A stretch of 22,795 bases of DNA from IMG/VR virus record IMGVR_UViG_3300032287_002969, positions 1 through 22,795 of that record; one strand, 5' to 3'. The position numbers were made by a program, and so were the translations under genes. The notes under the pieces were generated by a model. The model was not told the origin of the DNA, made no database searches, and was given only the letters and a program-made list of their open reading frames with translations. The first letter of the stretch is position 1. Every line of letters begins with the position of its first letter. Below, one piece after another: positions 7,061 to 22,795 of the stretch. Origin of the DNA: a virus.

Positions 7061-8744
7061 TCCGACCATCGATCGCTCGATTCCTCAGGCAACGCCCGAA
7101 GGCCAGTACATCGAGACTCCGCCAACTCCCGCTCAGCAGAAGTTTGAGCTGATGCTTAAAGATCCCAGCTTTAGGGATCGACTCATCGCAGCGGGTGAGA
7201 CCGCTATGATGGTCGGCACCTCGCCCATTGGCTATCTGGCTGGAATTGCAGGAGCAGGTTACGGCTTGGCAACAGGTCAAGATCCACGCGAGACAGGTGC
7301 GAAGTGGGAGCAGGCATCGACCTACCAACCGCAGACGCCGGTTGGGCAGTACTACGCTGAGCAGGTTGGTGAGAAGCTAGGTGCACTCCCGCCTGTCATC
7401 TCTGGGATCCCGCACTTGCGCATGGGTCCTAATGCTGGACGCTTTGCCGCTGAGACTTATGCCAAACCGGTGGCAGAGATGGCAAGCGACCTGTACATGG
7501 CAGGGCAGATCCCGGGAGTGCCAAGTCCTGCAAGTTACGTGGTCGACCCCAAAGGCAATCTAAATTTCAGACCGAATATCACAGGCGAGATGTTTAAGGG
7601 GCCAGAGACGCAGCCTGTGTCGAGTTTTTTAAATCAGGTGCAAGGTATGCCCGGCATGACAGCAAGTGGGCTAGAAACTGGGTTTGGTCCAATCCGTGCC
7701 CTTGACCCAAATGAGAAAGTCACCAAGGGCGCACTGGCTGATAAGGTCAGGCCGTCTGAGTATCAGAAGGTCGATCTTAAAGGCGCATCGGACAATAATC
7801 TTCAGCATTATATAGACGAAGCGTTTGACGATTTGTATGATGACGATAATGTTAATCGAACTGTCTTTAACCAATTAGGATTTGGACCGCAAATGGAAAT
7901 GCCTTTATTAGACGCATTCGGTGCGGGTAATTTTGATAGTTTGACACCTAGACAACGTCAAATTGTTAGGGACAGAGGGTTCAGAACTTATGACCATTTT
8001 GAAGAAGCCTTTTACGACATACAGCGCGATATAGCTTTTGATAGGGCGACTGCGCGCATGGCGGAAGAAGGCACGTCAGGAGACTATGCGTATCGCAATG
8101 ACCAACGTTTAAAACAAGATACACTTGATGATGATCGTTATTTTGAGATAGGCGTCACGCATCCTGACTATAAAGAACCGTATCGTCACTATGATAAAGC
8201 GCCTAGTGGAACGATCGGCCATATACGAGGCTCGTTTTTGCAAGATCCTACTGACATGGGACAGACCCATACTCAATTGGAGACAGGACCGTATACAACT
8301 CGTCTCAATGACCCCGGTGCAATGCTTATAGAAGAGATTCAGTCTGATGCCAACAAAGGTGCAAAACAAACTGGACCTCTGCATCAGGTGCACGGTCTTT
8401 TATTTAAAGCCGCTATTCAGCACGCCTTAGAGAATGGGGCAAAAACTGTCTACGCGCCTACAGCTAAAGCCATTGCAGCAGTACGATCAGGAAAACCTGA
8501 AAGGTACGCGCCAATCTATGATCAGCAGATTGTCAAAGAAGGGATCACCCCGCTTAAAAAGATTAGAGGCGTGACGGTCACAAAGGTGTTTGCCGACCCC
8601 GGATTTAGTGGCGCCGGTAGCGACCATCACATGTTAGATAAGATCGACTTCACGCCCGAAGCAATAGAACACATACTTAAAGGTGAAGGCCAGAAACTCC
8701 CCGGCTATAAAATAGGCGGATTCGTGAACACATTTAGGAAATAG
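7050..8744 (+). CDS. Polyvalent-type phage protein, 564 aa
   Basis: This large protein of unknown biochemical role is placed between terL and the portal. Residues 29-111 contain K-F-E-L, a hydrophobic Gly/Ala-rich stretch (about 45-76), Y-Q-P-x-x-P and L-P-P-V-I-S-G-I. The same series of motifs occurs in the next protein. The middle (about 250-370) is Asp/Glu- and Tyr-rich. The C-terminal part holds M-L-I-E-E-I-Q-S-D (E428-D433), then L-L-F-K-A-A-I-Q-H-A and A-K-T-V-Y-A-P-T, then E-R-Y-A-P-I-Y. This order is characteristic of a module in phage polyvalent proteins (Iyer, Aravind and co-workers), thought to be injected with DNA. It ends K-I-G-G-F-V, a variant of the GG motif. The start is within the TerL gene and has only a weak ribosome site. 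Confidence 0.65.
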   Translation: MPYDPTIDRSIPQATPEGQYIETPPTPAQQKFELMLKDPSFRDRLIAAGETAMMVGTSPIGYLAGIAGAGYGLATGQDPRETGAKWEQASTYQPQTPVGQYYAEQVGEKLGALPPVISGIPHLRMGPNAGRFAAETYAKPVAEMASDLYMAGQIPGVPSPASYVVDPKGNLNFRPNITGEMFKGPETQPVSSFLNQVQGMPGMTASGLETGFGPIRALDPNEKVTKGALADKVRPSEYQKVDLKGASDNNLQHYIDEAFDDLYDDDNVNRTVFNQLGFGPQMEMPLLDAFGAGNFDSLTPRQRQIVRDRGFRTYDHFEEAFYDIQRDIAFDRATARMAEEGTSGDYAYRNDQRLKQDTLDDDRYFEIGVTHPDYKEPYRHYDKAPSGTIGHIRGSFLQDPTDMGQTHTQLETGPYTTRLNDPGAMLIEEIQSDANKGAKQTGPLHQVHGLLFKAAIQHALENGAKTVYAPTAKAIAAVRSGKPERYAPIYDQQIVKEGITPLKKIRGVTVTKVFADPGFSGAGSDHHMLDKIDFTPEAIEHILKGEGQKLPGYKIGGFVNTFRK

Positions 8745-8746
8745 TC

Positions 8747-11700
8747 ATGGCTCAATACGATGATGAGGCGCCACCACCCGGGTACCGCTATCACTATTTC
8801 GGTGATCCTGCTAGCGGAGTTAGCGGCCGCTATCCTGTCCCAATAGAGACGCCTATTGGCGATGGCTCAGGACGCCCCATTGCGCCACACAGGGAAGTTG
8901 CTGGTGAAGTCCCAGGGACTGGGCCTAGTCTTGATCAGATGAAGTTTGAGCTATCACAGCAACAGCAACCGCAACAGACGCAGACTCCGTCTTTGCCTGA
9001 TTACTTAGCGAATTTGCCGCGTGAAATACGTGACCAAGTCATGGCGTTAGGCGAAGTCGGTCTGTCCATGTTCACCAGCATGATCTCGCCTCCAGTCGGT
9101 GCTGTCGCAGGTGTAGGTAAGAACCTGTATGACTACGTCACCAAAGGTAAGATAGATCCGGCAGCCAGCAAAGATTTTGCCAATACTGCTGCGGGAATGG
9201 TCACGTATCAACCCACATTGCCCAGTGCGCAAAGCATAATGCAGGTTATGGGTGAAGCGCCTGCGTACTTTATGGGCACCGAGCAAGGTCTGCCTCCGAT
9301 CGTGTCGGGTATTAACCCACGCGCATTGCAAACACCGCGCGGCACAATGGGCGCGCTCAGCCAAGGCGTCAAACGTGATGTCGGCCAATTCAGCAATGAC
9401 GTGTTTAACGCACAGCGCGGAATCACGCCCGGGTATCCGACCATGGGTTCAGAGTTTAGTAGCGCGTTTGTAGATCCTAAGCCGTCGGTCTATGAGATGC
9501 TTGCAGGTTTAGAACCTTCCAATGTGCCCAGCACTGCATCGGCCGCAGTCAAACCTGTGGGAAGAGGTGTACAAGCCTCTGATCTCGGTAAGCCATTTCC
9601 GAGTCTAGAAAACTATAGCGGAATGACGCAAGAATTATCTGACAGATATAAGCATACTGGCATAACTAGCGCAATACGTTATTGGCGCGATGACTATACG
9701 ACTAAGCTTGGTAGGATAGATTGGCGTGTTGAACAGGCATATGAAGATGGACTCCGCGACTACAAAGCTGCCAATAAACCAATAGATCCTGCTACGGGTC
9801 AACCGCATAAGGGATCACTTCAAGACGATGTTATATACAGACTTACTAATGAATATACAAAGATTTGGAATGAACAACATCGTGCAGAACCCGAAAAACA
9901 AGTTATACCGCCGGAACGATTTGAACTTGCTGCCCAGTTAGAAAACGCGTGGCGAACAGGCCCGCGTAAGAAATACATAGAAACTAAAATGGGCACAGGC
10001 GTAGCGACTGATCCTCTTTTAGCGCAAGTCGAACAGACTGGAATTAGGTTCCATGATGAAATGACTGATGCCGATAGACTTAATTCTTTAAATAACGCAA
10101 ATTCTAATCGTGCAGATGCAGCGCTTTTACATGGCGAAGATCCTAATTCGTACAAAGGACCTATGGGCGTAGGTGAGTATAAATATCCATTAGTCGGGAC
10201 TAGAACAGCAGTCACGCCTGCAGGAAAAGAATATGAAGATCTAATAGATAGATACATCAATACGACTACAAAGAATAGCACGTACGCTCCATATGCAACA
10301 CCTGAACAGCTATCCTATATTACGGACACCGCGCCAATATATGACATTAATGCGCATATAGGCGATCACCCGCTTAGCCCAATTGATGAACGGTTTAGAC
10401 AAGACGCTTTAGCGGGACGTATTAAGCTCGAGAATGTAAATCAAATCAGCCCAGAACGTATTGCACTTCAGCTTCTTAAAGAAAAACAGGCGGAGATAGC
10501 CAAAGCAAAGAAATCAAATGACGCGCTCAAGGTCTTTAAACTCGAACGCCTGAACACTCTCCCTGGGCAAGTGTTCCCCGGCACAGGCAATAAACTCATT
10601 ATATTTAATAAGGCCATGGTCACTGATCCGGCTTCTGAGCACATGATGGTTCGCGATTTGTCGACAGACTGTTATGACTTAGACCATTGCGTAGCGCATG
10701 CCGGAAAACCGCCACAACGACTTACAGATGATTTTTATGATACGGACGAATTTAAAAAGCGCCACTACCGTCCACTTGTTATTCCCCATACAGGAAAAGA
10801 ACCTCCGAATGCAGCGTACTACCCGAACATGGGATCTGAACCTCCCGAGCCCGGAAGGCCTCATGGGCATACACCATTTACTCGAGGTGTAGAACAGGGC
10901 ACTAAAGAGATTGCGTCGTTGCGCGATCCGGCAGGCAATGTATTAGTTACTTCGGAGACAAGTCCACCTGATAAAAAAGGTGAGTTTGACGTCATTCAAG
11001 TCCAAGGTTATCAAGACGGCGGCGTCGATGATTCAGGTCCAAAAGATAGCGGGCGCAAAGCTATAACCCCAGAAGCGGCCCAAGATATGGTTACTTGGTT
11101 TAACGAAAACGCCAAGAAAATTGGGTACATTTCTATAGGACAGGGCTTAAATAAACTTCAAATTGCGGACATGGGTCGCGCTTTTACTCATCATTCTAAC
11201 CCTATGCACAACTCAGGGTTAGATGAGATAAATCCTTCATGGGATCATAAACAGGTCAAGACTATAATTGACGAATATAACGCCGACGCGGCGGTGACAG
11301 GCTCGCCTCTTGCACCTAGATTTTTAAATGGAGATCAAATCAAGGCTATCATTGCACAGATGGACATGACGCCGTATGCTCTTCCTACTCTTGATCCTGC
11401 AGACCATCTAACTAATGCAACGACTTTGACCCAATTTATTACTAAATTTGAAAAGTTAAAACATCAAGTTAGTCTTGGGACGGATACTGCAAATAATCTT
11501 GCCGATGTGGAACGGCATATTGCCACGCTTAAAACAGCGCGTGAGCAAGAAAATGTATTACATGCTGAGCAATTAAAGCAAAGACGTGCCGCAACACAGG
11601 CGTTAAGTACTACTTTTAGCGATCAGATATCAAGACTAGCTGCTTCTAATATAACAGATCCTAATTTTAGTTTTAATCTTGACAGTCTACCAATAGAATT

Positions 11701-13291
11701 TAGGACTTTAGGGCATGCTTTAATGGGCAACATCTATAGTCCAAGTTCGCAATTACCTCCTGCTCTTCATAAAAAGGTCATAGACGTGGCACTTACTCAT
11801 TCGCCGAGCGATGTACGAAAGCTAGCGACTGCTGTACGTGAAGTGCATTACCATGATCCGACTAATACGGCTGTATTGACTCAGCATGGACTTACTGACG
11901 TAGCAAATCTCACCGAGGCGCAAAAGCATAATCTATCAGATATTCTTATGAGCTTTGATAACGTATCTACTAATACCCAAGGCCTTGCTGTTCCTGACTA
12001 TAGTCCTTATTTTGTGCAAGTGAATGACTTAATAAATTCTGCAAAAGCTCTTCATACTAATGAAAATATACATGATCAGACGATAAATCTGCAGACGGCG
12101 CTTGCTGAATTTGAAAATATGCCGCTGGATCAAGGGGCTCGTAGCGATGCGTTACGTGCAGGTCGAAATTTTAGACATGCAACACAAGAGACTTTAAATA
12201 GACACTTAGATTTTGTTACAAATTTCTTTTCCCCCATTGATATAAATGTCCCTGCATATATTAAAGACAGGGTTACTCCTGATCTGCGTGATGACGCGCT
12301 CTTACTTTCGCAGCTTGTGACTAATCCCGTTCAAGGCACAAGCCTACCAGAATTAAGAGAGTTTGCTGATCGCTATACGCACAATATCACGGACAGCATG
12401 TATAACAGTGTGGACATGCATAACGTATATAAGCAGATGACGCAAATCGATAAATTCCCAGCTTCTGTGGTCGATAACGGAAAAGCTGTTTTAAGACAAT
12501 TTGCACAAAAGCGACTTTTGCCTGAGCAATTTGCAGCTTTTACGAGAGACGCTGACGGAGTGGACGCGCATTTTCAAACTCTGCGCGATCAATATAATGT
12601 TCCTGCCGATATGACTGTCCCTGCATTTATGCGAGAAGAAGTGACTCCTACGTCTGACCCAATGCGCATTGCTTTAAGTGGCATACATACCGGACTCAGC
12701 GAATTGCGTAGAGGTCCTATGACCACTGTGGATGAGTTTGTAAGGCGTGTTGCTGCTCAACACGGTCTAAATACCAAAGAGCAATTTGGAATTCAGGTTA
12801 TTCTTGGTGATGACGGCGTACAACTTGCCCCCGGTCTTAGAGCTAAACTTAATAGCGTAATACTCGATGATCATCCATCTTACGGTGAAGTTAATGGATT
12901 CATAACCAGAGTGATGGCTGAGGGTTGGGAGAATGAGCAAAAAGTAAAAGCGCTAACAGTTCTAAATAATTTTATGAAGTTACGAGGCGCCGATCTTTCA
13001 CAAGTAGTCAATTCATATCTAGCCAGCCCTGATTTGACGCCCTATGTGCGGATACATCCAAATATCCCTAACATGGCTCGAGGCGGTAGAGTCAGACGCA
13101 TGGCAGACGGCGGCGCAGTGACCGACACTCTGGATAAAATGGTAAAAAATCGTCAAGCATCAACGCTATTAAACTTAGATCTGCCAAATCTAATTGCTGC
13201 AAAGCGACAAATCCCAGCTAAAAGACGCGGTGGTAAGGTAGAATTCTCAAATAATATAGACGACATGCGCTACGCGCTGACCCGTCGCTAA
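8747..13291 (+). CDS. Giant polyvalent-type phage protein with PcfJ-like segment, 1514 aa
   Basis: The N-terminus (60-230) repeats the motif series of the preceding protein: K-F-E-L, R-D-Q-V-M-A-L-G-E, Y-Q-P-T-L-P, L-P-P-I-V-S-G-I, F-V-D-P-K. Around 640-790 lie D-H-C-V (H647, C648), then A-S-L-R-D-P-x-G-N-V-L-V-T-S-E (R726, D727) and I-Q-V-Q-G (about 750). This series is typical of a PcfJ-like/polyvalent-protein module. Residues about 885-965 look coiled-coil, followed by a long helical region to about 1430. The C-terminus carries three GG motifs: A-R-G-G-R-V, A-D-G-G-A-V, R-R-G-G-K-V. It starts two bases after the previous stop with AGGAA upstream. Its size, location and company suggest a virion-packaged or ejected protein; enzymatic activity is not demonstrable. 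Confidence 0.65.
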   Translation: MAQYDDEAPPPGYRYHYFGDPASGVSGRYPVPIETPIGDGSGRPIAPHREVAGEVPGTGPSLDQMKFELSQQQQPQQTQTPSLPDYLANLPREIRDQVMALGEVGLSMFTSMISPPVGAVAGVGKNLYDYVTKGKIDPAASKDFANTAAGMVTYQPTLPSAQSIMQVMGEAPAYFMGTEQGLPPIVSGINPRALQTPRGTMGALSQGVKRDVGQFSNDVFNAQRGITPGYPTMGSEFSSAFVDPKPSVYEMLAGLEPSNVPSTASAAVKPVGRGVQASDLGKPFPSLENYSGMTQELSDRYKHTGITSAIRYWRDDYTTKLGRIDWRVEQAYEDGLRDYKAANKPIDPATGQPHKGSLQDDVIYRLTNEYTKIWNEQHRAEPEKQVIPPERFELAAQLENAWRTGPRKKYIETKMGTGVATDPLLAQVEQTGIRFHDEMTDADRLNSLNNANSNRADAALLHGEDPNSYKGPMGVGEYKYPLVGTRTAVTPAGKEYEDLIDRYINTTTKNSTYAPYATPEQLSYITDTAPIYDINAHIGDHPLSPIDERFRQDALAGRIKLENVNQISPERIALQLLKEKQAEIAKAKKSNDALKVFKLERLNTLPGQVFPGTGNKLIIFNKAMVTDPASEHMMVRDLSTDCYDLDHCVAHAGKPPQRLTDDFYDTDEFKKRHYRPLVIPHTGKEPPNAAYYPNMGSEPPEPGRPHGHTPFTRGVEQGTKEIASLRDPAGNVLVTSETSPPDKKGEFDVIQVQGYQDGGVDDSGPKDSGRKAITPEAAQDMVTWFNENAKKIGYISIGQGLNKLQIADMGRAFTHHSNPMHNSGLDEINPSWDHKQVKTIIDEYNADAAVTGSPLAPRFLNGDQIKAIIAQMDMTPYALPTLDPADHLTNATTLTQFITKFEKLKHQVSLGTDTANNLADVERHIATLKTAREQENVLHAEQLKQRRAATQALSTTFSDQISRLAASNITDPNFSFNLDSLPIEFRTLGHALMGNIYSPSSQLPPALHKKVIDVALTHSPSDVRKLATAVREVHYHDPTNTAVLTQHGLTDVANLTEAQKHNLSDILMSFDNVSTNTQGLAVPDYSPYFVQVNDLINSAKALHTNENIHDQTINLQTALAEFENMPLDQGARSDALRAGRNFRHATQETLNRHLDFVTNFFSPIDINVPAYIKDRVTPDLRDDALLLSQLVTNPVQGTSLPELREFADRYTHNITDSMYNSVDMHNVYKQMTQIDKFPASVVDNGKAVLRQFAQKRLLPEQFAAFTRDADGVDAHFQTLRDQYNVPADMTVPAFMREEVTPTSDPMRIALSGIHTGLSELRRGPMTTVDEFVRRVAAQHGLNTKEQFGIQVILGDDGVQLAPGLRAKLNSVILDDHPSYGEVNGFITRVMAEGWENEQKVKALTVLNNFMKLRGADLSQVVNSYLASPDLTPYVRIHPNIPNMARGGRVRRMADGGAVTDTLDKMVKNRQASTLLNLDLPNLIAAKRQIPAKRRGGKVEFSNNIDDMRYALTRR

Positions 13292-13299
13292 GGATAATT

Positions 13300-15870
13300 A
13301 TGGCCACTGAAATGCCTATCCCGCAGGACTATGGACGCTTTGTCGATTCTGCTCAAGAAGACGCAGAGCGCGAGGAATTTGCTGACATTCCAGAGATCAA
13401 ACTCTTTGACCAAGACGTCGAAGAGCAAGAAGACGGCTCGGCCATTGTCAAACTGGACAATCTAAAGACACCTGATGAGTCACCTGATTTTTATTCTAAC
13501 TTGGCTGATGAGTTAGATACTTGGGAGCTCAGTAAACTGGCATTGAAGTACATCGAACTCGTCGAAAAAGACAAAGACGCACGCGAAGGTCGCGATAAGC
13601 AATACGAAGAAGGTCTTCGCCGCACTGGATTAGGGCACGATGCGCCCGGAGGCGCTCAGTTCCAAGGGGCAAGTAAGGTTGTCCACCCTATTATGGCCGA
13701 AGGATGTGTCGACTTCGCCGCACGAGCCATTAAAGAGCTATTTCCGCCTGACGGACCAGTAAAAACTAAGATAATTGGCGATGTGACGGAAGAAAAGACA
13801 GATAAAGCCGAGCGCAAGCGCGATTACATGAACTGGCAGCTCACCGAGCAGATCGAAGAGTACCGAGACGAAGAAGAGCAGCTCTTAACCCAGCTTCCAT
13901 TAGGCGGTTCGCAGTACATGAAGCTCTGGTATGACGCTCAGAAGCGCCGCCCCTGCGCCGAGTTCTTGCCAATCGATAACGTATACCTACCATTCTCTGC
14001 TGCTAACTTCTATACGGCGAGCCGTGTGACCGAGGTTAATGATATTACGCAGGAAGAATTTGAGATCCGTGTGTCATCAGGCATGTACCGCGATCTCGAT
14101 GTCTATCGCGCCACTCAGGAGCCGGATCAAACACGGCCAGAGAAGGCCAATGACAAGATCGAAGGCCGCAGTCAACAGGATTCCAATATAGATGGTGTGC
14201 GCCGTGTTTATCACGTCTATACTTGGATGGAATTGGAAGATGACTCACATTCCAAAGGTGAACGCGCCCCTTATATTCTAATGGTCGATGAGCTGACTAC
14301 CGAAGTCGTCGGTCTTTACCGTAACTGGGAAGACGGCGATGAGGATATGAACAAACTTGACTGGATCGTAGAGTTTAAGTTTATTCCTTGGCGAGGCGCT
14401 TATGCAATTGGTCTTCCTCATCTTATTGGTGGGCTGTCTGCTGCTCTTACTGGTGCCCTGCGCGCTCTTCTTGATACTGCTCATATCAACAACTCAGCCA
14501 CTATGCTGAAACTGAAGGGCGGCAAGGTGTCAGGCCAAAGCTTGGTGATCGAGCCAACTCAGGTCGTTGAGATCGAGGGTGCGCCCGGAGTCGATGACAT
14601 CAGAAAGATTGCAATGCCTATGCCTTTCAATCCACCGTCTGCTGTGCTGATGCAGCTCCTTGGGTGGTTAACAGCAGAAGCTAAGGGCGTAGTCACCACG
14701 GCAGAAGAGAAAATCGCTGATGTGACTTCTAACTCTCCTGTAGGCACAACCCAAGCGCTGATCGAACAGGGCGCAGCGGTATTCTCATCGATCCACGCAC
14801 GTCTCCATACCAGCCAAGCGCGAGTGCTGAAGATCATTGCTCGTCTAAATCGCTGGTACCTCGATGACGCTATGGACGAGACAGCAGAAGAGCTAGGCGT
14901 CAGCTCTGCAGATTTTGAAAAAAATACGGACATCGTCCCAGTCTCGGACCCACACATCTTTGCGGAGTCACAACGCTATGCTCAGGTTCAAGCCCTTGCT
15001 GCACGCGCGCAGGCGAATCCAGATCTTTACAATAGACTGGCGGTCGAGAAACGAATCCTTAAGCAAATCAAGTTACCCGACATTAACGAGGTCTTACCCG
15101 ACCCCCAAGATGTACAGGACATGAACCCTGCGCTCGAGAACGTGGCGATGACACTTGGCAAACCTGCCGGTGCGTTTCCCGCTCAAGATCATTTAGCTCA
15201 TATGCAAGTACACTTGGACTATGCCAAAGACCCGATGTATGGGGCTAGCCCAATTATTGCACCGACCTTCTTGCCCGGGTTTATCGAGCACATGAAGCAG
15301 CACTTAACGCTTTGGTATCTAAACCAAATGGATCGCTATGCAAGCGAGTCTTTAGAGCGGCCATTTAATATTCTTAAAGTAGAACCCATCGTGCGCGAAG
15401 CTCAACGGCTCTTGGCCGCAGCTTCACAGCACGTGTTCCTAGATGTGCAGCAGGGCCAGTTTGCGCAAGTCGGTCCTATCATTCAGCAGGCTGTACAGAT
15501 GATGCAACAGCTTAGAGGGCAGATGCAACCTACGGATCCGTCTGTGCAAGCGTTAGTGCAAACACAAATGGCAGAGACGCAACGCAAGGGCGCCTATGAT
15601 CAAGCTAGACTTCAGCTCGATGCAGCTAAACTTCAAGCAGATACTCAAGCCAAGCAAGAAAAAAATGTGGCTGATCAGCAAATTAAAGCCGCAGAGATTA
15701 CTCAAAACGTAAGTGTTCTCACGCTGGAGCAACAGCATGAGATGCAACGCCAACAGTTGGCAGCACAACAGCAGCAACAAATGGCCGCACAACAGGCGGC
15801 TCAGCAACAAGCAGCGCAGCAACAAGTAATGCAATCACCTCAATCTGCACCACCAGCTCAAGGAGTTTAA
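13300..15870 (+). CDS. Portal protein
   Basis: This 856-aa protein is recognised as a portal of the large podovirus-like type. It has D-T-W-E-L-S-K-L-A near the start (about 71), G-G-A-Q-F-Q-G-A-S-K-V-V-H-P-I-M (117-132) and then F-A-A-R-A-I-K-E-L-F-P-P. A beta-rich wing contains F-L-P-I-D-N-V-Y-L-P-F. A stem-like region follows with S-N-S-P-V-G-T-T-Q-A-L-I-E-Q-G (about 477-491), a motif common in portals of this class. It forms the dodecameric DNA channel to which TerL docks. The C-terminal 120 residues are a long predicted coiled coil ending in Gln/Ala runs, as in portals with a barrel extension. GGA lies upstream of the ATG. The separation from terL by about 6.2 kb of two big genes is unusual. 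Confidence 0.85.
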   Translation: MATEMPIPQDYGRFVDSAQEDAEREEFADIPEIKLFDQDVEEQEDGSAIVKLDNLKTPDESPDFYSNLADELDTWELSKLALKYIELVEKDKDAREGRDKQYEEGLRRTGLGHDAPGGAQFQGASKVVHPIMAEGCVDFAARAIKELFPPDGPVKTKIIGDVTEEKTDKAERKRDYMNWQLTEQIEEYRDEEEQLLTQLPLGGSQYMKLWYDAQKRRPCAEFLPIDNVYLPFSAANFYTASRVTEVNDITQEEFEIRVSSGMYRDLDVYRATQEPDQTRPEKANDKIEGRSQQDSNIDGVRRVYHVYTWMELEDDSHSKGERAPYILMVDELTTEVVGLYRNWEDGDEDMNKLDWIVEFKFIPWRGAYAIGLPHLIGGLSAALTGALRALLDTAHINNSATMLKLKGGKVSGQSLVIEPTQVVEIEGAPGVDDIRKIAMPMPFNPPSAVLMQLLGWLTAEAKGVVTTAEEKIADVTSNSPVGTTQALIEQGAAVFSSIHARLHTSQARVLKIIARLNRWYLDDAMDETAEELGVSSADFEKNTDIVPVSDPHIFAESQRYAQVQALAARAQANPDLYNRLAVEKRILKQIKLPDINEVLPDPQDVQDMNPALENVAMTLGKPAGAFPAQDHLAHMQVHLDYAKDPMYGASPIIAPTFLPGFIEHMKQHLTLWYLNQMDRYASESLERPFNILKVEPIVREAQRLLAAASQHVFLDVQQGQFAQVGPIIQQAVQMMQQLRGQMQPTDPSVQALVQTQMAETQRKGAYDQARLQLDAAKLQADTQAKQEKNVADQQIKAAEITQNVSVLTLEQQHEMQRQQLAAQQQQQMAAQQAAQQQAAQQQVMQSPQSAPPAQGV

Positions 15871-15872
15871 TC

Positions 15873-16145
15873 ATGGCAGAAGCAATTTCGCAACACAAGC
15901 GTATGGCAATGGGCGAGTCAGTCCCATTAGCTCCCGGTAAATCAGTGATTCAGAAATACGCAAGAGGCGGGCAGGTCATGCCTGAAAAAGGCGTTGCCAA
16001 TCTTCCGGCTAAAGGCACTGTCGCTCCTGTGCCAAAAGCGACAGGCGCAAAGATTGCAAGTTTTAATAAGGGCGGCAAAGCTAAAATGCCCGGGCTGACT
16101 ATTGCGATTGCTATTCCACGCAAGGCTGCGGGCCGTGGCCGTTAA
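15873..16145 (+). CDS. Small basic GG-motif protein, 90 aa
   Basis: This 90-aa basic protein starts two bases after the portal stop, with AAGGAG inside the portal's last codons. It contains I-Q-K-Y-A-R-G-G-Q-V (26-35) and F-N-K-G-G-K-A (64-70), is rich in Lys, Pro and Ala, and ends R-K-A-A-G-R-G-R. No known domain is recognised. The I-Q-K-Y-A-x-G-G-x-V string reappears in the protein at 21333-21908 with different synonymous codons. It is probably a minor head component or packaging-associated peptide; this rests only on position and shared motif. Confidence 0.75.
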   Translation: MAEAISQHKRMAMGESVPLAPGKSVIQKYARGGQVMPEKGVANLPAKGTVAPVPKATGAKIASFNKGGKAKMPGLTIAIAIPRKAAGRGR

Positions 16146-16314
16146 TCCTTTAAGTGATCTTATCGGAAAAGTCAAAGCGCGGCGTCTAGAAATAGCGCTG
16201 GCTTTGGCTGACGGGCATGCTATCAATATAGAGTCGTATCATAGACTGGTTGGCCAGTATCAGGGCTTGGGTGAAGCTTTAGATATACTGGATGAACTGT
16301 TAAAAGAAGAATAG
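16135..16314 (+). CDS. Small helical protein, 59 aa
   Basis: The likely start is GTG at 16135, overlapping the end of the preceding gene by 11 bases, with AAGG nine bases upstream. An ATG 33 bases further up lies deeper in the previous gene and lacks a better ribosome site. The protein is mostly amphipathic helix: D-L-I-G-K-V-K-A-R-R-L-E-I-A-L-A-L-A, then a break, Y-H-R-L-V-G-Q-Y-Q-G-L-G-E-A, and an acidic end D-E-L-L-K-E-E. Short helical proteins like this often follow portal genes in environmental phages, from recollection. Function is unknown. Confidence 0.68.
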   Translation: MAVNPLSDLIGKVKARRLEIALALADGHAINIESYHRLVGQYQGLGEALDILDELLKEE

Positions 16315-16319
16315 TTATT

Positions 16320-16332
16320 AGTTACTAGTTAC
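16320..16332 (-). repeat. GTAAC element 5, distant copy
   Basis: The reverse complement is GTAACTAGTAACT, two GTAAC half-sites eight bases apart as in elements 2 and 3 (GTAACAAGTAACT, GTAACGAGTAACT). It lies in the gap before the GroES-like gene, 11.6 kb from the other copies. Confidence 0.6.
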
Positions 16333-16403
16333 AGGTCTGCCCTATACCTGAACCAAAAATAGGGCATAAGCATTGCAACCTTCCCGCGCCGAATGGCGCT
16401 TTT
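16332..16403 (+). promoter_or_regulatory. Candidate attenuator: two competing stems, then terminator-like hairpin
   Basis: CAGGT (16332-16336) can pair with ACCTG (16346-16350), while GCCCTAT (16339-16345) can pair with ATAGGGC (16359-16365). The second stem overlaps the interior of the first, so both cannot form fully. GCGCC-GAAT-GGCGC-TTTT (16386-16403) follows as a small intrinsic-terminator-like hairpin, directly before AAGGAG (16407-16412) and the start at 16419. Confidence 0.4.
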
Positions 16404-16418
16404 AATAAGGAGTGTCGC

Positions 16419-16823
16419 ATGACACTGGACGAAGCGTTTCCCGTAGTTGATTCCGGCTGTGCCCCGCTTGGCGCTCGTATCTTAGTGCAGTTCAAGCAAA
16501 CCCCAAAGAAGACCACGTCAAGTGGGATCATTCTGGTCGAAGAGACTAAAGACACCGAAAAATGGAATACCCAAGTTGCAAAAATCGTTGCAATGGGGCC
16601 TCTTGCATTTAAGCAGCGCGACACTATGCTGCCTTGGCCTGAAGGTAGTTGGGCGGAGATTGGTGAATTTGTGCGAGTCCCTAAATGGGGCGGTGACCGC
16701 TGGGAAGTTCCTCTTAAAGAAAACGAAGATAATCCTGAAATGGCTTTGTTTGCTATTTTTAATGACCACGAATTGATTTCTAAGGTCACGGGTGATCCAC
16801 TTAAAGTGAAGGCGTTCCTATGA
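16419..16823 (+). CDS. GroES-like cochaperonin
   Basis: This 134-aa protein has the Cpn10 pattern. A first strand, P-L-G-A-R-I-L-V-Q (16-24), precedes a flexible loop about 27-42 with T-T-S-S-G-I-I-L-V-E-E. The Ile-Ile-Leu (37-39) matches the GroEL-binding hydrophobic tripeptide of the GroES mobile loop. V-A-K-I-V-A-M-G (53-60) follows, then I-G-E-F-V-R-V-P-K-W-G-G and a final A-I-F-N-D-H-E-L-I-S-K-V. It is longer than bacterial GroES, as are phage cochaperonins such as T4 gp31. It probably caps host GroEL for folding the capsid protein; no GroEL gene is in the window. AAGGAG lies six bases before ATG, and the stop overlaps the scaffold start (ATGA), so both are likely translated together. 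Confidence 0.82.
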   Translation: MTLDEAFPVVDSGCAPLGARILVQFKQTPKKTTSSGIILVEETKDTEKWNTQVAKIVAMGPLAFKQRDTMLPWPEGSWAEIGEFVRVPKWGGDRWEVPLKENEDNPEMALFAIFNDHELISKVTGDPLKVKAFL

Positions 16824-17779
16824 ACTCGACAGATAAACTTGAAATGCAAGTCGCAGAAGAACAAGACGGTAGTGCTTTGGCGCAATTACCAGAGACCGAA
16901 GAAAATCCTCAAGAGCTTGCAGAAGGCGGAGAAGTCGATAACCACCCTGATGATACTGCTGGGGTCGATGCTGATGATCCAGATCGTGAAGCCATACGCG
17001 TTGCACGACGCGAAGAGCGCCGGCTAAAGAAACAAATTCATCGCGAAAAGGCTAGCCAGTCTAACCACCTGATCAATGCTTTAAAGAAACAAAATCAAGA
17101 ATTAGCAGGCAGATTAGCTAATCTTGAGACACGCACTTCAGGCGCAGAACTGGCTCGTGTCGATAAGGTCATCGAAGATACAGGTGTCCAAATTGAATAC
17201 GCTAAGATGAAGATGCGTGAAGCGGTCGCTAGTCAAGACGGTGACGCTGTCGTCAAGGCGCAGGAATTGATGTATGAATCGCAGCGCAGGCTCGAAGCAT
17301 TAAAAAACATCAAAGACAATGCCACCAAGCAAATGGCAGCGCCTAAGCAGAATATCAATGTACCGGATCCTCAGGTACAACGCAATGCTGCTGACTGGAT
17401 GTCACGCAATGAGTGGTATGACCCTCAAGGCAAAGACATGGACTCTGAGATTGCTCAGCGGTTTGATAAAAAACTTACCGACGAAGGTTTCGACCCGTCT
17501 TCGGAAGAATATTGGGAAGAACTCGATGATCGCCTTGCAAAATATTTACCTCACCGTTACGGCGCGGCGGCCGCTAAGCCTCGTATGACTCAGCGCCCAC
17601 GTTCAGTAGTTACAGGTTCGGGTCGGGAGACCACTCCCGTCGGCCGCGCCAATGAGTTTCGCCTCTCGCCTGAACGCGTCAGCGCCATGAAAGAAGCTGG
17701 AGCGTGGGACGATCCCGTGCGCAAAGCTGCAATGGTGAAGCGTTTTGTTGAGTTTGACCGCAAAAATAAAGGAAATTAA
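16820..17779 (+). CDS. Scaffolding protein (probable)
   Basis: This 319-aa protein has the usual scaffold layout. There is an acidic disordered N-terminus (1-55), a charged coiled-coil region (about 58-190), then a mixed helical part and a basic C-terminal helix (R-K-A-A-M-V-K-R-F-V-E-F-D-R-K-N-K, about 301-317), the position where scaffolds bind coat protein. It would guide procapsid assembly and then leave or be degraded. It starts in an ATGA overlap with the GroES-like gene. Residues 34-39 read A-E-G-G-E-V, the GG motif in an acidic setting. Scaffolds have little sequence conservation, so order (portal, scaffold, capsid) and composition carry the call. Confidence 0.75.
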   Translation: MNSTDKLEMQVAEEQDGSALAQLPETEENPQELAEGGEVDNHPDDTAGVDADDPDREAIRVARREERRLKKQIHREKASQSNHLINALKKQNQELAGRLANLETRTSGAELARVDKVIEDTGVQIEYAKMKMREAVASQDGDAVVKAQELMYESQRRLEALKNIKDNATKQMAAPKQNINVPDPQVQRNAADWMSRNEWYDPQGKDMDSEIAQRFDKKLTDEGFDPSSEEYWEELDDRLAKYLPHRYGAAAAKPRMTQRPRSVVTGSGRETTPVGRANEFRLSPERVSAMKEAGAWDDPVRKAAMVKRFVEFDRKNKGN

Positions 17780-17781
17780 TC

Positions 17782-18318
17782 ATGACTGATGACCGTATTA
17801 AGAAAAGTCTGAACTCGGGCCGCGAAAGCCGCGCTGTTCAAGACAAGTCACGCGCTGCTCCTGAAGATAATTTTATGTCTGCAGCGGAACGCCGCAAAAT
17901 GTTTAAGACAGAGTTTACGCAAGAAGCTTTGCCAAACGTACCTGATAGTGACAAATGGCACTATTGCTGGTTATCGACGACTAATCAGTACGATCCGATC
18001 CATAAGCGTATGCGCTTAGGCTATCAGGCTGTTAAATCTGATGAATTACCCGGGTTTGAACATCTAAAAGTTAAGGCCGGCGAGAACGTAGGACACATTT
18101 CTTGCAATGAGATGGTGCTCTATAAGCTTCCTATGGATATTTATCAAGGCTATATGTTGGAAACTCACCACTACGCCCCCATGGAAGAAGCAGATAAGAT
18201 TCGGATGCAGCAAGATCAGCTTCTAAATGCCCGAGACAGCAACGGGAAGAGTCTGGTTAAGCAAGAAGGTGATGGAATTCCTGATGATAGTTCTATTCCG
18301 CTACCTGTTTTTGAATAA
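17782..18318 (+). CDS. Conserved phage head-region protein, unknown function
   Basis: This 178-aa soluble protein has a basic N-terminal tail (1-30) and a compact core. The core carries W-H-Y-C-W-L-S-T-T-N (59-68), Y-D-P-I-H-K-R-M-R-L-G-Y (70-81) and Y-M-L-E-T-H-H-Y (about 143-150), with an acidic C-terminus. Aromatic residues and two Cys (C62, C108) stand out. Similar proteins sit between scaffold and capsid genes in environmental phages, from recollection; no function is known to me. It begins two bases after the scaffold stop with AAGGAAA upstream. It could be a capsid accessory or assembly factor. Confidence 0.72.
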   Translation: MTDDRIKKSLNSGRESRAVQDKSRAAPEDNFMSAAERRKMFKTEFTQEALPNVPDSDKWHYCWLSTTNQYDPIHKRMRLGYQAVKSDELPGFEHLKVKAGENVGHISCNEMVLYKLPMDIYQGYMLETHHYAPMEEADKIRMQQDQLLNARDSNGKSLVKQEGDGIPDDSSIPLPVFE

Positions 18319-18320
18319 TA

Positions 18321-18349
18321 TTGTAAATTTTAAAATAAGACGTTATAAT
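18321..18349 (+). promoter_or_regulatory. Strong sigma-70 promoter for capsid genes
   Basis: TTGTAA (18321-18326), 17-nt spacer, perfect TATAAT (18344-18349). It begins two bases after the preceding stop codon. The predicted start lies around 18356, a few bases before a 12-bp hairpin. It would drive the decoration and major capsid genes separately from the upstream operon. Confidence 0.7.
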
Positions 18350-18358
18350 TAATGCATA

Positions 18359-18442
18359 GCTGCCCATTTTGCATAAAGTGGGCAGCACAAAAATCCTAAA
18401 ATCACGTTATTAGGTGATTTTGCTGCTAGCTTTGAAGAAAGC
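18359..18442 (+). other. Three consecutive stem-loops in the capsid mRNA leader
   Basis: Hairpin 1 (18359-18386) has a 12-bp stem with one G-T pair and loop GCAT. Hairpin 2 (18398-18421) is AAAATCAC/GTGATTTT around an 8-nt loop. Hairpin 3 (18429-18442) is GCTTT-GAAG-AAAGC. None is followed by a convincing T-tract except that hairpin 2 ends in TTTT. Hairpin 1 would sit at the very 5' end of RNA from the 18321 promoter, where it could protect mRNA. Confidence 0.6.
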
Positions 18443-18481
18443 GAAAACCAAAATTTCTTTTAACTATTTTAGGAGCAATCC

Positions 18482-19069
18482 ATGAGTGCAACCTCTGCAC
18501 CTTTTGGCCTGCGGCCCGCATACTTTCCAACAGGGTTGGAACGCGCACAGGCACTGGCTAATGGTATTACCTCCGGCTATGGCACTGCAATCCTGAAAGG
18601 TCAGGCCGTGCAGTATTCGCCTAATGCTGGCGTTATTCTTCCCGTTTTAGATACAACTACCAACAGCGGTTTGGTCTCTGGTGCCTTTGCAGGTGTCGAG
18701 TGGACTGATACAACTGGTCGTCGTCGTGTATCAAACTATTGGCCCGCAAGTACAGCTGCTATCGCAGGTAGCATTGTTGCGTATTTCTATAACGACCAAC
18801 AAATCGTTTATGAAATTCAAACTGACGGCACAATGGCTCAGACAGCTATCGGCAATGAAGCGAATTTGAGCAATTTTGCTGCTGGTTCTACTACAACTGG
18901 TTTGTCGCAAGCAACTTTGTCGGCATCGCTCGTTGGTTCAGGTAGTGCCGGACAGTTCCGTATTGTTGATATTGCACCTTACCCAGACAATAACTGGGGC
19001 GATCCTTTTGTGATTGTTCGTGTACAGGTCAGCAAGCCTCAGTTCATCGCAACTGTTAACGCTATTTAA
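18482..19069 (+). CDS. Capsid decoration-like structural protein, 195 aa
   Basis: This protein is mostly beta-structure: M-S-A-T-S-A-P-F-G-L-R-P start, then G-L-E-R-A-Q-A-L-A-N-G-I, repeated Gly/Thr/Ser strands, and a C-terminal I-V-R-V-Q-V-S-K-P-Q-F. It belongs to a type commonly found beside major capsid genes in aquatic phages (the N-terminal A-P-F-G-L-R-P is familiar). Such neighbours are usually head decoration or stabilising proteins. It has GGAG eight bases before ATG, its own promoter and a structured leader. Its stop codon overlaps the strong Shine-Dalgarno of the capsid gene, so the two should be produced together. Exact role is inferred from position. Confidence 0.65.
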   Translation: MSATSAPFGLRPAYFPTGLERAQALANGITSGYGTAILKGQAVQYSPNAGVILPVLDTTTNSGLVSGAFAGVEWTDTTGRRRVSNYWPASTAAIAGSIVAYFYNDQQIVYEIQTDGTMAQTAIGNEANLSNFAAGSTTTGLSQATLSASLVGSGSAGQFRIVDIAPYPDNNWGDPFVIVRVQVSKPQFIATVNAI

Positions 19070-19082
19070 GGAGGACTAGAAA

Positions 19083-19997
19083 ATGGCCGCTCCAATGCGC
19101 AGTACTGACTTTCGGAGTATCGTTGAGCCAATCCTCAACGAATGCTTCGATGGCATCTATGACCAACGTGCCGATGAGTGGAGCAAAGTGTTCCGCGAAC
19201 AAATTGGCATCCCAAGGAACTACCACGAAGAACCCGTTCTCTACGGTTTCGGCGCGGCTCCTGAGCTCCCAGACGGTAGCCCAGTGTCGTACCAACAAGG
19301 TGGCGTTCTCTTCCTGCAGCGCTATGTGTACAAAGTCTACGGTCTTGCTTTCGCACTGACGAAAGTTTTGGTCGAAGACGGCGATCACATCCGTATCGGT
19401 CAGGTCTATGCCAAGCACTTGGCACAGTCTTTGATTGAGACGAAAGAAACCCTCGCAGCGAACGTATTGAACCGCGCGTTCAACAGTTCGTACAGCGGCG
19501 GTGACGGCGTGCAGTTGAGCTCCAACGCTCACCCAATCGTTAACGGTACGTTCAGCAACCTGTTGACCACAGCAGCTAACTTGTCGCAAACCTCGCTTGA
19601 GCAGATGCTCATTCAGGTTCGTCAAGCGGTGGACAACAACGGCAAGAAGATTCGTCTTCAGCCTACTAAGTTGGTTGTTGCTCCCGGAAACGTATTCCAA
19701 GCTGAAGTCTTGCTGAAGTCGGTCCTTCGTACCGGTACTGCCAACAACGACATCAACCCAGTTAAGTCAATTGGTTTGATGCCTGAAGGCGCTGCTGTTA
19801 TGTCGCGTTTGACTTCTTCGACAGCATGGTGGGTACAGACAGACGCTCCAGAAGGCTTGAAGCTGATGATGCGCCGTGGTCTTGAAAAGACTATGGAAGG
19901 CGACTTTGAGACTGACTCGATGCGCTATAAGGCCACCGAGCGTTATTGGATTAGCTGGACAGATCCACGCGCAGTCTACGGGACTCCCGGAGTCTAA
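19083..19997 (+). CDS. Major capsid protein (Mu gpT-like, HK97 fold)
   Basis: This 304-aa protein matches the Mu-like gpT/HK97-fold capsid pattern. An N-terminal arm precedes Q-R-Y-V-Y-K-V-Y-G-L-A-F-A-L-T (79-93) and L-S-S-N-A-H-P-I (145-152). A helical spine contains S-L-E-Q-M-L-I-Q-V (171-179), then P-T-K-L-V-V-A-P-G-N (194-203), N-N-D-I-N-P-V-K-S (221-229) and a beta-rich A domain with W-W-V-Q-T-D-A-P. It forms the icosahedral shell. The ribosome site TAAGGAGG (19067-19074) is fully complementary to the 16S tail, eight bases before ATG, as expected for the most abundant virion protein. A strong terminator follows. No cleaved delta domain is evident, consistent with a separate scaffold. Confidence 0.9.
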   Translation: MAAPMRSTDFRSIVEPILNECFDGIYDQRADEWSKVFREQIGIPRNYHEEPVLYGFGAAPELPDGSPVSYQQGGVLFLQRYVYKVYGLAFALTKVLVEDGDHIRIGQVYAKHLAQSLIETKETLAANVLNRAFNSSYSGGDGVQLSSNAHPIVNGTFSNLLTTAANLSQTSLEQMLIQVRQAVDNNGKKIRLQPTKLVVAPGNVFQAEVLLKSVLRTGTANNDINPVKSIGLMPEGAAVMSRLTSSTAWWVQTDAPEGLKLMMRRGLEKTMEGDFETDSMRYKATERYWISWTDPRAVYGTPGV

Positions 19998-20007
19998 AGT
20001 AGGACAG

Positions 20008-20036
20008 GGGGCTAGCGTAAAACCTAGCCCCTTTTT
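20008..20036 (+). terminator. Rho-independent terminator after major capsid gene
   Basis: GGGGCTAG (20008-20015) pairs perfectly with CTAGCCCC (20024-20031) around the loop CGTAAAAC, followed by TTTTT (20032-20036). It begins 11 bases after the capsid stop and would end or reduce transcription before the next structural gene. Confidence 0.9.
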
Positions 20037-20074
20037 CAATTAACCCGAGTGGTTCAAGCCACAGGAGATTAAAA

Positions 20075-21322
20075 ATGCCTCAATTTTCAGACGACCTATT
20101 TTTAGGTTCTGCACCAACTTTTATGGGTACAGGTCTACGCAACTATTCAACTACCGCAATCGGTGGCACTGGTAGCGTTTCGTCCACAACCTTAACAATC
20201 ACCTCTGTGGGCTTTGGCGCACCGATCACGCTCGGCATGTTTGTTGATGGCGCAGGCGTGACTGACGGTACGTACATCACTGCTTTTGGTACCGGTACCG
20301 GCGGCGTAGGTACTTATACTCTTAACCAAGCAATTAATATTGCAAACACTGTTGCATTGACTTTGCATGATTTAGAGCTTTTTGACAATCCGTCTCCAAT
20401 GAGCATTGGTGTTGGCCCACTAGGTCGCATCTACGTTTGGGATGTGGTTCCTCAAGCTGCTGTTGCGAATAATATTGCCGCTTCACAAACTCCTGCTGCC
20501 GCGGGTGCATTGACGTTAACGGCTGGGACAAGCGTAAAGTCAATTACAACAGCCGCTGGCACTTCTGCTTTTGCTCTTGATGTGCCTCGTGGCGTTAGCG
20601 TAACAACTGCAACTGCCGCTGCTGCAACATTATCAAGCGTTGTGATTGCAGGCACTGGTGGTCAAATCACCTTCACCTCGCAAGCTGGTTTGGTAACTGG
20701 TCAGCGTTTGACAATCTCTGGCACTTTAGGTGGCACAGGTACTATCACTGGCTACACCAACCCAACGACCTACATCCTGACCGCTGTGACAGCAACCTCT
20801 GCAACGCTCACTACTACAGCAGGTGCGGCAGTGGTGACCACGGCAGGTACACCGACAGGCTTGACTTACACCTTGGGCGTGGCTCCTGTGACTGTGACTG
20901 TCTCTGGTTTTGACGTTTACGGTCAAGCAATGAGCGAGGCAATCACCTCTAGCGCTGCTGTGAGCACTGCTGTGAGCGGTTTGAAAGCCTTCTACCTCAT
21001 CACCTCTGTGAGCGTGAGTGGCGCGACTGGTACTGCCTTGACTGTTGGAACAACCAACGTGTTGGGTTGCCCAGTTCGTGTTCCTAACATTGCTTATGTG
21101 GCAAGCGTTAAGAGTAACAACGCTTTGGCGCAAGATGGCGGTAGTTTTATTGCCGCTGATACTGCAACTGCTACGACCACCACTGGTGACGTTCGCGGTA
21201 CATACACCCCTGCTACCGCATCGAATGGCATCGTTCGTACAGTAGTCGGAATCTTGTTGCCAGCAATTGCTGTTGGTCCAAACTCAACTCGTACCGGCGC
21301 TCTCGGCGTCACTCAAGCCTAA
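20075..21322 (+). CDS. Modular beta-rich head decoration/fibre-like protein, 415 aa
   Basis: This protein is extremely rich in Thr, Ala, Gly, Ser and Val. Its core (1-29, 99-180, 290-415) has D-V-P-R-G-V-S-V (169-176) and V-T-V-S-G-F-D-V-Y-G-Q-A-M (293-305), which read as one continuous decoration domain if the insert is removed. Two segments look inserted. Residues 30-98 have G-x-G-V-T-D-G-T-Y-I and G-T-G-G-V-G-T-Y-T-L-N-Q. Residues about 185-289 have L-V-T-G-Q-R-L-T-I-S-G-T and G-L-T-Y-T-L-G. Both are module types that recur in phage surface proteins. It probably displays on the capsid exterior. AGGAG precedes ATG; expression depends on read-through of the upstream terminator or an unseen promoter. 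Confidence 0.65.
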   Translation: MPQFSDDLFLGSAPTFMGTGLRNYSTTAIGGTGSVSSTTLTITSVGFGAPITLGMFVDGAGVTDGTYITAFGTGTGGVGTYTLNQAINIANTVALTLHDLELFDNPSPMSIGVGPLGRIYVWDVVPQAAVANNIAASQTPAAAGALTLTAGTSVKSITTAAGTSAFALDVPRGVSVTTATAAAATLSSVVIAGTGGQITFTSQAGLVTGQRLTISGTLGGTGTITGYTNPTTYILTAVTATSATLTTTAGAAVVTTAGTPTGLTYTLGVAPVTVTVSGFDVYGQAMSEAITSSAAVSTAVSGLKAFYLITSVSVSGATGTALTVGTTNVLGCPVRVPNIAYVASVKSNNALAQDGGSFIAADTATATTTTGDVRGTYTPATASNGIVRTVVGILLPAIAVGPNSTRTGALGVTQA

Positions 21323-21332
21323 GGAGTAGATC

Positions 21333-21908
21333 ATGGGTTTTAAAGAGATGAAGATGATGAAATCAACTGAGCCATCAGTTGATGAAGTTGGTAAAGGTAT
21401 GAAGAAAGGCGGCAAGACTAAAATGGCCGATGGCGGTATGCCTATGGGCGCATTGCAAGCGGCCGCTGCGGCAGCTCCCGCAATGACTCGTCGTCGTCCT
21501 ATGCCTGCTCGTCGCCCTGATCCTCGTGCAGCTATGATGGAAGCGGCCATGGCGGAACAAGCCGCTGCTCGCCCTATGATGCGTAAAAAAGGCGGCGAAG
21601 TTGAAAGCAAAGCAATGCACATGAAAGAAGAAAGCCAGATTAAAGGCATTAAGAAAGAATTAATGTCTCATGAAGGCAAACCGGCATCAAAGGCCCATAA
21701 AGGTCTTAAGACTGGCGGTGTGGCTAATGCTCAAGGCGGCTACAAAAAAGGCGGTATGCCTAAATACGCAACTGGCGGAATTATCCAAAAGTATGCAACT
21801 GGCGGCGTAGTTAATGGTCAAGGTGGCTATAAAGATGGCGGCTTTGCTAAAATGATGTGCGAAGGCGGTTCAGGCCATAAAGCCATGAAAAAAGGCGGTT
21901 CCTTTTAG
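21333..21908 (+). CDS. GG-motif-rich basic protein, 191 aa
   Basis: This low-complexity basic protein carries twelve G-G pairs, most preceded by Lys/Asp/Thr/Gln and followed by a hydrophobic or Lys residue (pairs at 26, 34, 87, 128, 135, 140, 148, 157, 164, 169, 178 and 188). K-Y-A-T-G-G-I-I is followed at once by Q-K-Y-A-T-G-G-V-V. N-x-Q-G-G-Y-K-x-G-G occurs twice. Residues 40-80 are Ala/Met/Arg/Pro-rich. There is one Cys and no membrane segment or known domain. AAGGAG lies before the ATG. Similar GG-rich proteins are frequent and unexplained in environmental phages, from recollection. It may be a DNA- or capsid-binding minor head protein. Confidence 0.75.
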   Translation: MGFKEMKMMKSTEPSVDEVGKGMKKGGKTKMADGGMPMGALQAAAAAAPAMTRRRPMPARRPDPRAAMMEAAMAEQAAARPMMRKKGGEVESKAMHMKEESQIKGIKKELMSHEGKPASKAHKGLKTGGVANAQGGYKKGGMPKYATGGIIQKYATGGVVNGQGGYKDGGFAKMMCEGGSGHKAMKKGGSF

Positions 21909-21912
21909 ATAA

Positions 21913-21938
21913 GCATGGGGGTTCGCCCCCTGCTTTTT
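21913..21938 (+). terminator. GC-rich hairpin with T-run between structural genes
   Basis: GCA-T-GGGGG / CCCCC-TGC around TTCG, with one bulged T, followed by TTTTT (21934-21938). It resembles an intrinsic terminator, but GGAG for the next gene begins at the next base, so it may only trim expression or block RNases. Confidence 0.65.
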
Positions 21939-21948
21939 GGAGATATTT

Positions 21949-22368
21949 ATGACTATTACTGCCACCTCGCAGACATTGTTTGACGGCGAGCGCGTCGCTA
22001 TTATGAAGTTTTATACCACCATGAGCACAACGGAGAACGAATCCGCTGTGGCAAAAGTCACGCCTTCTGCGCTTTTACCTTCAAATGCCGGTGGTGCTTG
22101 TGATGCTGTAAGCATTTTAAAGATACACGCGTTGACCCACGGCTTAGAAGTTCAGTTAAATTGGGCAGCCACTGCGCCAGTGGTCATTGGAACAATCCCA
22201 CAGAATACAAATTACACCCAAGACTTTTCTGGCTTTGGCGGTTTGTGGAATAACGCAGGCGCCGGTAAGACGGGTGTCATTACGTTTACAACGCTAGATG
22301 GATCGGCAGGTGATACCTATACGATTATTCTAGAAATGCAAAAGCATTATGTAAATCCTACAAACTAA
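21949..22368 (+). CDS. Small structural-type protein, 139 aa
   Basis: The start is ATG 21949 with GGAG six bases upstream; an in-frame TTG at 21937 would place the ribosome site inside the gene. The protein is beta-rich with no Lys/Arg clusters. It has L-F-D-G-E-R-V-A-I-M-K-F-Y, L-N-W-A-A-T-A-P-V-V, Q-D-F-S-G-F-G-G-L-W-N-N-A-G and D-T-Y-T-I-I-L-E-M-Q-K. Proteins with this D-F-S-x-F-G-G-L-x-N-N-A-G string are frequent in phage structural regions, from recollection, and usually stay unannotated. It may be a capsid-associated or neck component. Confidence 0.72.
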   Translation: MTITATSQTLFDGERVAIMKFYTTMSTTENESAVAKVTPSALLPSNAGGACDAVSILKIHALTHGLEVQLNWAATAPVVIGTIPQNTNYTQDFSGFGGLWNNAGAGKTGVITFTTLDGSAGDTYTIILEMQKHYVNPTN

Positions 22369-22370
22369 TC

Positions 22371-22795
22371 ATGCCAAGCAAATCACCTGAGCAGAAGCGC
22401 TTGATGCAAGCGGTGGCCCATAGTCCTGAGTTTGCCAAGAAAGTTGGTATTCCTCAGAAAGTGGGTAGAGAGTTTGCAAAAGCAGATAAGACCATGAAAG
22501 GCGGTGGTCTATATGAGAATATCCATGCCAAGCGTGAACGCATTGCAGAAGGCTCTGGTGAGAAAATGCGCAAAGTAGGAAGTGCCGGTGCACCGACTGC
22601 TGAGGCGTTTAAGCAATCGGCCAAGACCGCTAAGAAGAAAGACGGCGGTGATGTATCACTTTCAGTGGGTCGTGGTGAAAAATTATCTGTTGAGCGCGGC
22701 GCTGGACTCACAGCCAAGGGTCGTGCCAAATACAATAGAGAGACGGGAAGCAACCTAAAAGCGCCTCAGCCCGAGGGGGGTTCTCGTAAAGATTC
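22371..22795 (+). CDS. Two-module phage protein, 3' end outside window
   Basis: The open frame from ATG 22371 runs without a stop to the window edge (141 codons). The N-terminal part M-P-S-K-S-P-E-Q-K-R-L-M-Q-A-V-A-H and K-K-V-G-I-P-Q-K-V-G-R-E-F (to about residue 40) is a short module familiar in many phages. The later part L-T-A-K-G-R-A-K-Y-N-R-E-T-G-S-N-L-K (about 113-130) is another widespread phage module, normally followed by a Cys-containing segment outside this window. The linker is basic and includes K-D-G-G-D-V (about 94-99), the GG motif. It follows the previous stop by two bases and has no obvious ribosome site, so coupling is likely. Function is unknown. Confidence 0.7.
   Translation, partial: MPSKSPEQKRLMQAVAHSPEFAKKVGIPQKVGREFAKADKTMKGGGLYENIHAKRERIAEGSGEKMRKVGSAGAPTAEAFKQSAKTAKKKDGGDVSLSVGRGEKLSVERGAGLTAKGRAKYNRETGSNLKAPQPEGGSRKD

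Follow-up and report, generated by a model that had tools for sequence, protein, structure and literature searches.

The head-gene region of this phage raises the question of why several otherwise unrelated proteins share a short double-glycine (GG) motif and what the peptide does. The window, meaning the whole stretch of DNA that was analysed, is a single viral contig of 22,795 bases. Its genes run from primase, a VRR-type nuclease, small and large terminase, p564, p1514 and portal through p90, a GroES-like co-chaperonin, a putative scaffold, p178, p195 and the major capsid protein to p415, p191, p143 and a protein with DUF6321 that the end of the contig truncates; the scaffold, small terminase and nuclease were named partly from position and inspection. 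A tRNA-Met gene lies on the minus strand near the contig start (335-409), and the tag and motif sites located in the window below are on the plus strand. The major capsid protein has relatives at 88-94% identity in 80 fetched viral contigs, and further relatives in deposited phages (MW202545; Caulobacter phages RW, RLK, KcrB and GB2A; Roseobacter CRP-901; Pelagibacter HTVC023P; Planktothrix Pag-Yong1). Half of the bacterial bins with relatives (n = 10) were labelled betaproteobacteria, and these metagenome bins suggest freshwater betaproteobacterial hosts for the tagged phages. With p90 on one side and the scaffold on the other, the GroES-like gene (16419-16823) is matched by 97 related proteins across the loci and is therefore a stable part of the head module. 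Because the phage encodes GroES, mimicry of the GroEL mobile loop by the GG motif was considered; it was dropped, the residue following GG being usually polar.

To define the motif, we returned to the strings quoted in the first-pass annotation, all of which were present, either where it had placed them or within 1-3 bases: KIGGFV in p564, ARGGRV, ADGGAV and RRGGKV in p1514, IQKYARGGQV in p90, AEGGEV in the scaffold, twelve GG pairs in p191 and KDGGDV in the last protein. The loose pattern drawn from them also matched the portal (KGGKV), TerL (EGGII), primase (AGGPA) and p415 (TGGQI), and both this pattern and bare GG were rejected as over-permissive definitions. Bare GG was not enriched (45 in the window versus 47.4 in shuffled proteins of the same composition; 33 versus 41.9 without p191). 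Glycine content thus accounts for the bare pair but not for its context, as [YM][AKQ]xGG occurred 14 times in the window against 0.75 expected (7 against 0.5 without p191). Across the window and 86 related loci, the consensus around GG was K-[YM]-[AK]-x-G-G-x-V. The core was found 119 times in the head module of 11 near-complete relatives (contigs >50 kb), where 10.4 were expected, and 20 times outside it, where 22.9 were expected in twice as much protein, so non-virion genes show no excess of the motif.

The motif is confined to p90, p191, p141, some scaffold N-termini and the very large proteins whose genes lie between terminase and portal. When the clustered proteins of 167 loci were surveyed by family, the core was carried by p191 (97/97), p90 (65/65), p141 (53/77), scaffold (14/122) and the large-protein families, and by almost none of the capsid (0/105), GroES (0/97), TerL (0/70) and portal (1/131) proteins. 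In p90 (15873-16145), the motif IQKYARGGQV (15948..15977) recurs in all homologues, and their alignment shows no or almost no change in the GG columns despite free variation at synonymous positions. This bears out the earlier proposal of selection on the peptide and shows the motif to be conserved in orthologues. A second p90 motif, FNKGGK (16062..16079), came from motif analysis and the same alignment. The scaffold (16820-17779) had been listed as a further bearer: AEGGEV is present near its N-terminus (16919..16936), but a matrix built from the p90 family does not recognise it, and it is poorly conserved, as the census counts show.

What the first-pass annotation overlooked is a second and more specific half, D-x-M-[RK]-x-[EA]-L, which together with the GG motif forms a bipartite tag at the C-terminus of the large proteins. 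The tag opens with GGxV, runs through a linker that varies in length to D-x-M-[RK]-x-[EA]-L, and closes with a few basic residues before the stop codon, all within about the last 25 residues. In p1514 (8747-13291), the tag RRGGKVEFSNNIDDMRYALTRR (13223..13288) ends at the stop codon and is supported by an HMM, by comparison with the closest relative (L208) and by pN/pS. Further GG motifs, MARGGRV and MADGGAV, lie near this C-terminus (13076..13117), the latter scoring 14.9 bits with the p90-family matrix, and PSLDQMKFEL, a copy of the second half, lies at residues 60-69 (8924..8953). In p564 (7050-8744), the tag PGYKIGGFVNTFRK (8700..8741) is the first half alone and aligns with PGYAKGGTVQRPATLDDMKFALMMRRA, which ends the same effector domain in two relatives (L232 and L263). 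A possible degenerate second half, AQQKFEL, was read from the sequence near the p564 N-terminus (7131..7151), where it lines up with the N-terminal end of the cargo protein in L208.

The tag is attached to many different proteins. A C-terminal pattern search gave 73 matches, and the 250 residues upstream of them fell into 15 clusters without mutual similarity (BLAST E 1e-3), of which 14 were judged real and one (cluster 13) was rejected as a spurious match. Trained on just the largest cluster, an HMM detected the tails of the other clusters (whole-protein E down to 2e-16), and the p1514 tail was found by an HMM trained only on the tags of other proteins (whole-protein E 2.6e-9). In large proteins, the C-terminal zone (the final 22 positions) held 66 copies of the second half per 10.5k residues and the middles 52 per 362k, a roughly 44-fold difference in density, with the middles near the shuffled level. 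The second half was also about 9-fold denser near the N-termini; these copies were not counted as independent evidence, because 48 of the 51 share one homologous domain. The p1514 tail is under purifying selection (pN/pS 0.20, dS 0.75), again in agreement with selection on the peptide. The tagged gene usually lies directly 5' of the portal gene, and the tag or its GG half also ends genes away from the portal (p564; a 222-aa protein in L009; a 301-aa protein in L078). Inside large proteins, the GG half was weakly tied to domain borders (7.3% versus 5.1%), and internal GG motifs were not retained as domain-border marks on this weak support.

To assess the breadth of the tag, we completed a scan for D[EQ]MRYEL over 2.9 million viral contigs. 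The results showed 40 stretches, 29 of them in this phage group, where 16 sit 3-11 residues before a stop; the 11 outside the group look like chance. Among the in-frame matches listed for the DNA pattern GGxV...DAMR, seven loci were recognised as tag-bearing, all in this group. In the distant HTVC023P-like group, the pattern is more dilute (104 cores versus 32 expected), with C-termini such as FATGGMVERKR and small basic proteins bearing 3-5 GG copies. The 24-aa consensus tag and p191 gave no matches by tblastn against cultured phages, for which the short query and the low-complexity filter are the probable cause, and six representative peptide strings did not occur in the literature text searched. 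The tag is specific to this lineage, modular and subject to selection.

The domains in front of the tag turn over while the tag stays. Between p1514 and L208, identity is 39% for residues 1-801 of p1514 and 84% for residues 1452-1514, and the intervening residues 802-1451 lack a counterpart in L208. Similarly, proteins of 1732 residues (L263) and 1825 residues (L232) end in a domain shared with the C-terminal part of p564, there followed by the full tag. Domains found in relatives include ART-PolyVal, PcfJ, GH108 lysozyme, GP88 and DUF6973, with the GH108 lysozyme placed just upstream of the tag; among the carriers, ART-PolyVal occurs in L081, ART-PolyVal with GH108 in L261, and PcfJ in L012 and L270. 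In p564 and p1514 themselves, no Pfam domain was found at its cut-off; both are encoded between TerL and portal, that is, among virion genes. Residues 167-559 of p564 form an effector-like domain with conserved IEEIQSD...HQVHGxLFKAAIQ...YxPTAK, and neither tblastn nor a contig scan for this domain recovered relatives of it in other phages. Because its structural model was poor (pLDDT 60) and its GNAT-superfamily matches weak (best E 0.008), we claim no function for it. Phage polyvalent proteins are predicted to be packaged in the capsid and injected (PMC5512222), and the ART-PolyVal, PcfJ-like and GH108 lysozyme domains of the cargo fit such injected proteins. The large, fast-changing tagged proteins are, on this comparison, probably carried in particles and injected into bacteria.

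The GG half alone is repeated in small basic proteins. The families of p90, p191 and p141 carry one to 13 copies each, have a net charge of +11 to +15 per 100 aa and contain few hydrophobic residues. The 191-aa, Gly-rich p191 (21333..21908) has nine motif sites that pass the matrix trained on the p90 family, and its family holds 578 motif copies over its 97 homologues, from 2 to 13 per protein, at a mean net charge of +11.5 per 100 aa. As a separate observation, a cysteine is the last residue or lies within the final three in at least 54 complete members of this family (e.g. L070:3645-4604 and L035:11968-13188) and is not found there in the window copy. The last protein (22371 to the window end), with DUF6321 above the Pfam cut-off, contains KKKDGGDV (22632..22655; core in 53 of 77 homologues). 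Large cargo and a GG-repeat protein occurred together in 40 of 46 scorable loci, compared with a repeat protein in 2 of 7 loci without large cargo, in a count that ignores phylogeny. This co-occurrence makes the GG-repeat proteins candidate partners of the tag, with p191 a candidate multivalent one. Among six deposited relatives compared, those without cargo (Caulobacter phage RW, for example) have no repeat protein either and do not bear on the receptor.

The scaffold is another candidate docking partner. Its conserved segment EAIRVARREERRLKK (16988..17032) is like the second half of the cargo tag, and 92 of 114 scaffold homologues have a pattern resembling EAIRxARREERxLKK. In a few scaffolds (L022, L055, L058 and L060), a GG motif stands directly before EAMR, the same order as in the cargo tag. 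This likeness is a lead only.

We propose that the peptide works as a short linear docking tag by which proteins reach the interior of the phage head, a reading to which we give an even chance; the packaging, the partner and the ejection are what we infer. The large polyvalent cargo (p564, p1514 and relatives), bearing the C-terminal tag (in p564 its first half only), would be recognised during procapsid assembly by a common partner, be it the portal, the scaffold or the GG-repeat proteins in the role of a multivalent core. Recognition would lead to packing of the cargo, perhaps close to the portal, and to its ejection together with the DNA during infection. In a more tentative form, which we find possible though clearly less likely to hold, the C-terminal GGxV + DxMRxEL would be a dedicated cargo-loading code that admits any effector and is read by multivalent p191/p90, and its second half may mimic scaffold EA[IM]RxAR, so that cargo docks at the scaffold's site. 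Three roles had been suggested earlier, and of these the packaging tag has the most support, since varied cargo proteins bear the peptide and keep it when their domains are replaced; DNA or scaffold binding by the basic repeat proteins is possible, and double-glycine cleavage was weakened.

Known systems resemble this arrangement in part. Encapsulin cargo-loading peptides, which direct diverse proteins into an HK97-fold shell, are likewise short C-terminal peptides on diverse proteins; encapsulins have no scaffold, portal or DNA, and we know of no sequence relation between their peptides and the tag. The capsid targeting sequence (CTS) of T4 is N-terminal and is removed by the prohead protease. 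Diverse T4 internal proteins have only a conserved targeting sequence in common (PMC3012670). The peptide described here is similarly short, conserved and constant on unrelated, varied proteins, which would here too be internal, whereas it is C-terminal, bipartite, unrelated in sequence and half repeated in small basic proteins. Like phage polyvalent proteins, the cargo is large, is encoded in a late gene cluster and, in some relatives, has recognisable ART-PolyVal, PcfJ or lysozyme-type domains, as many as two in one protein (L261); unlike the present case, passages of the paper on polyvalent proteins (PMC5512222, Iyer et al. 2017) describe no packaging peptide. A further point of comparison is the podovirus ejection proteins of P22 and N4. 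To our knowledge, no tag is common to them. They are large injected virion proteins carried in the head (see also PMC8402733).

Several other explanations address the same observations. The basic GG-repeat peptides might bind or condense DNA in the head, or self-associate, with the cargo tail anchoring to DNA likewise, and the charge and scarcity of hydrophobic residues in the p90, p191 and p141 families, together with the small basic 3-5-copy proteins of the HTVC023P-like group, are consistent with this. However, the GG flanks and D-x-M-R-x-E-L are more specific than charge alone demands, and the second half includes acidic and hydrophobic positions; we consider DNA anchoring unlikely. The tail could also be a recombination scar, left where cargo genes were swapped beside the portal gene by crossovers within the last codons. 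Such swapping would suit the usual position of the tagged gene immediately 5' of the portal and the turnover of upstream domains, but the tail is under purifying selection. Since tags also end genes away from the portal and the motif occurs in the p90, p191 and p141 families, a scar alone is insufficient, and we regard it as rather unlikely.

A cleavage site would explain why GG is the most invariant part of the motif: a head protease would cut after GG in a T4-like maturation, trimming the cargo tails and cutting p191. Adenovirus and ASFV proteases cut after GG, and the bearers (scaffold, injected proteins and small basic core proteins) resemble the substrates of the T4 prohead protease. Against this, searches for prohead proteases of the S78 and ClpP types came up empty in 16 records >50 kb, a difference from T4 as far as these types go, and the major capsid protein lacks the motif; a search for a C48-type protease (PF02902) gave no match in the 16 records, and none in the control genomes either. 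When p178 was checked for a protease fold, its structural model gave no protease-like match, and it was rejected as the protease. Residues are also conserved on both flanks of GG, including the separate DxMRxEL element that cutting would discard. With no S78/ClpP-type protease found and both flanks conserved, cleavage after GG becomes less likely, and we judge it improbable. Low-complexity drift, in which slippage produces Gly-rich disordered tails of no specific function, would account for the variable copy number in the p191 family and for the lack of enrichment of bare GG; the invariant GG despite free synonymous change, the confinement to the head module and the precise C-terminal position on 14 unrelated upstream regions make it very improbable and largely exclude it.

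With the docking tag as the preferred reading, a conserved end peptide on cargo, half of which is repeated in small companion proteins, looks like an undescribed packing label. We know of no general explanation for how large, fast-evolving polyvalent proteins enter phage heads, and a conserved tag would make their packaging directly testable. The tag would also flag candidate injected effectors and counter-defence proteins in unannotated freshwater phages through their last 25 residues, and in the laboratory it could be used to bring foreign proteins into phage heads.

Not all large proteins end in this way (e.g. ...DDLIIEERPL and ...GRIIPEHTI). The conserved endings GGGVFNTDPDxTDxGxIIPEHT[IL] and GGxITxDDLIIEERxL, which follow a GG motif (L055:875-4552, L058:985-3918, L037:2-2533 and L062:1-2577), could be alternative tags. 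In related contigs (L414, L419, L422, L427, L434, L439, L442 and L446), open frames of about 730-940 aa close with a longer-linker tag, GGxVKPxGYTKEKVTVSPxLDQMRYELxSVKH..K, whose GG is not visible in L439. In L082 (26189-27931), in L083 (35465-37384) and on the far side of near-complete relatives, a second large, tail-side protein ends in or near IPPKAKSPLxYLK, and several relatives have GYAxGGxxEH about 100 residues before its end, where several of the 20 cores outside the head module lie; this may be another injected protein with the GG half.
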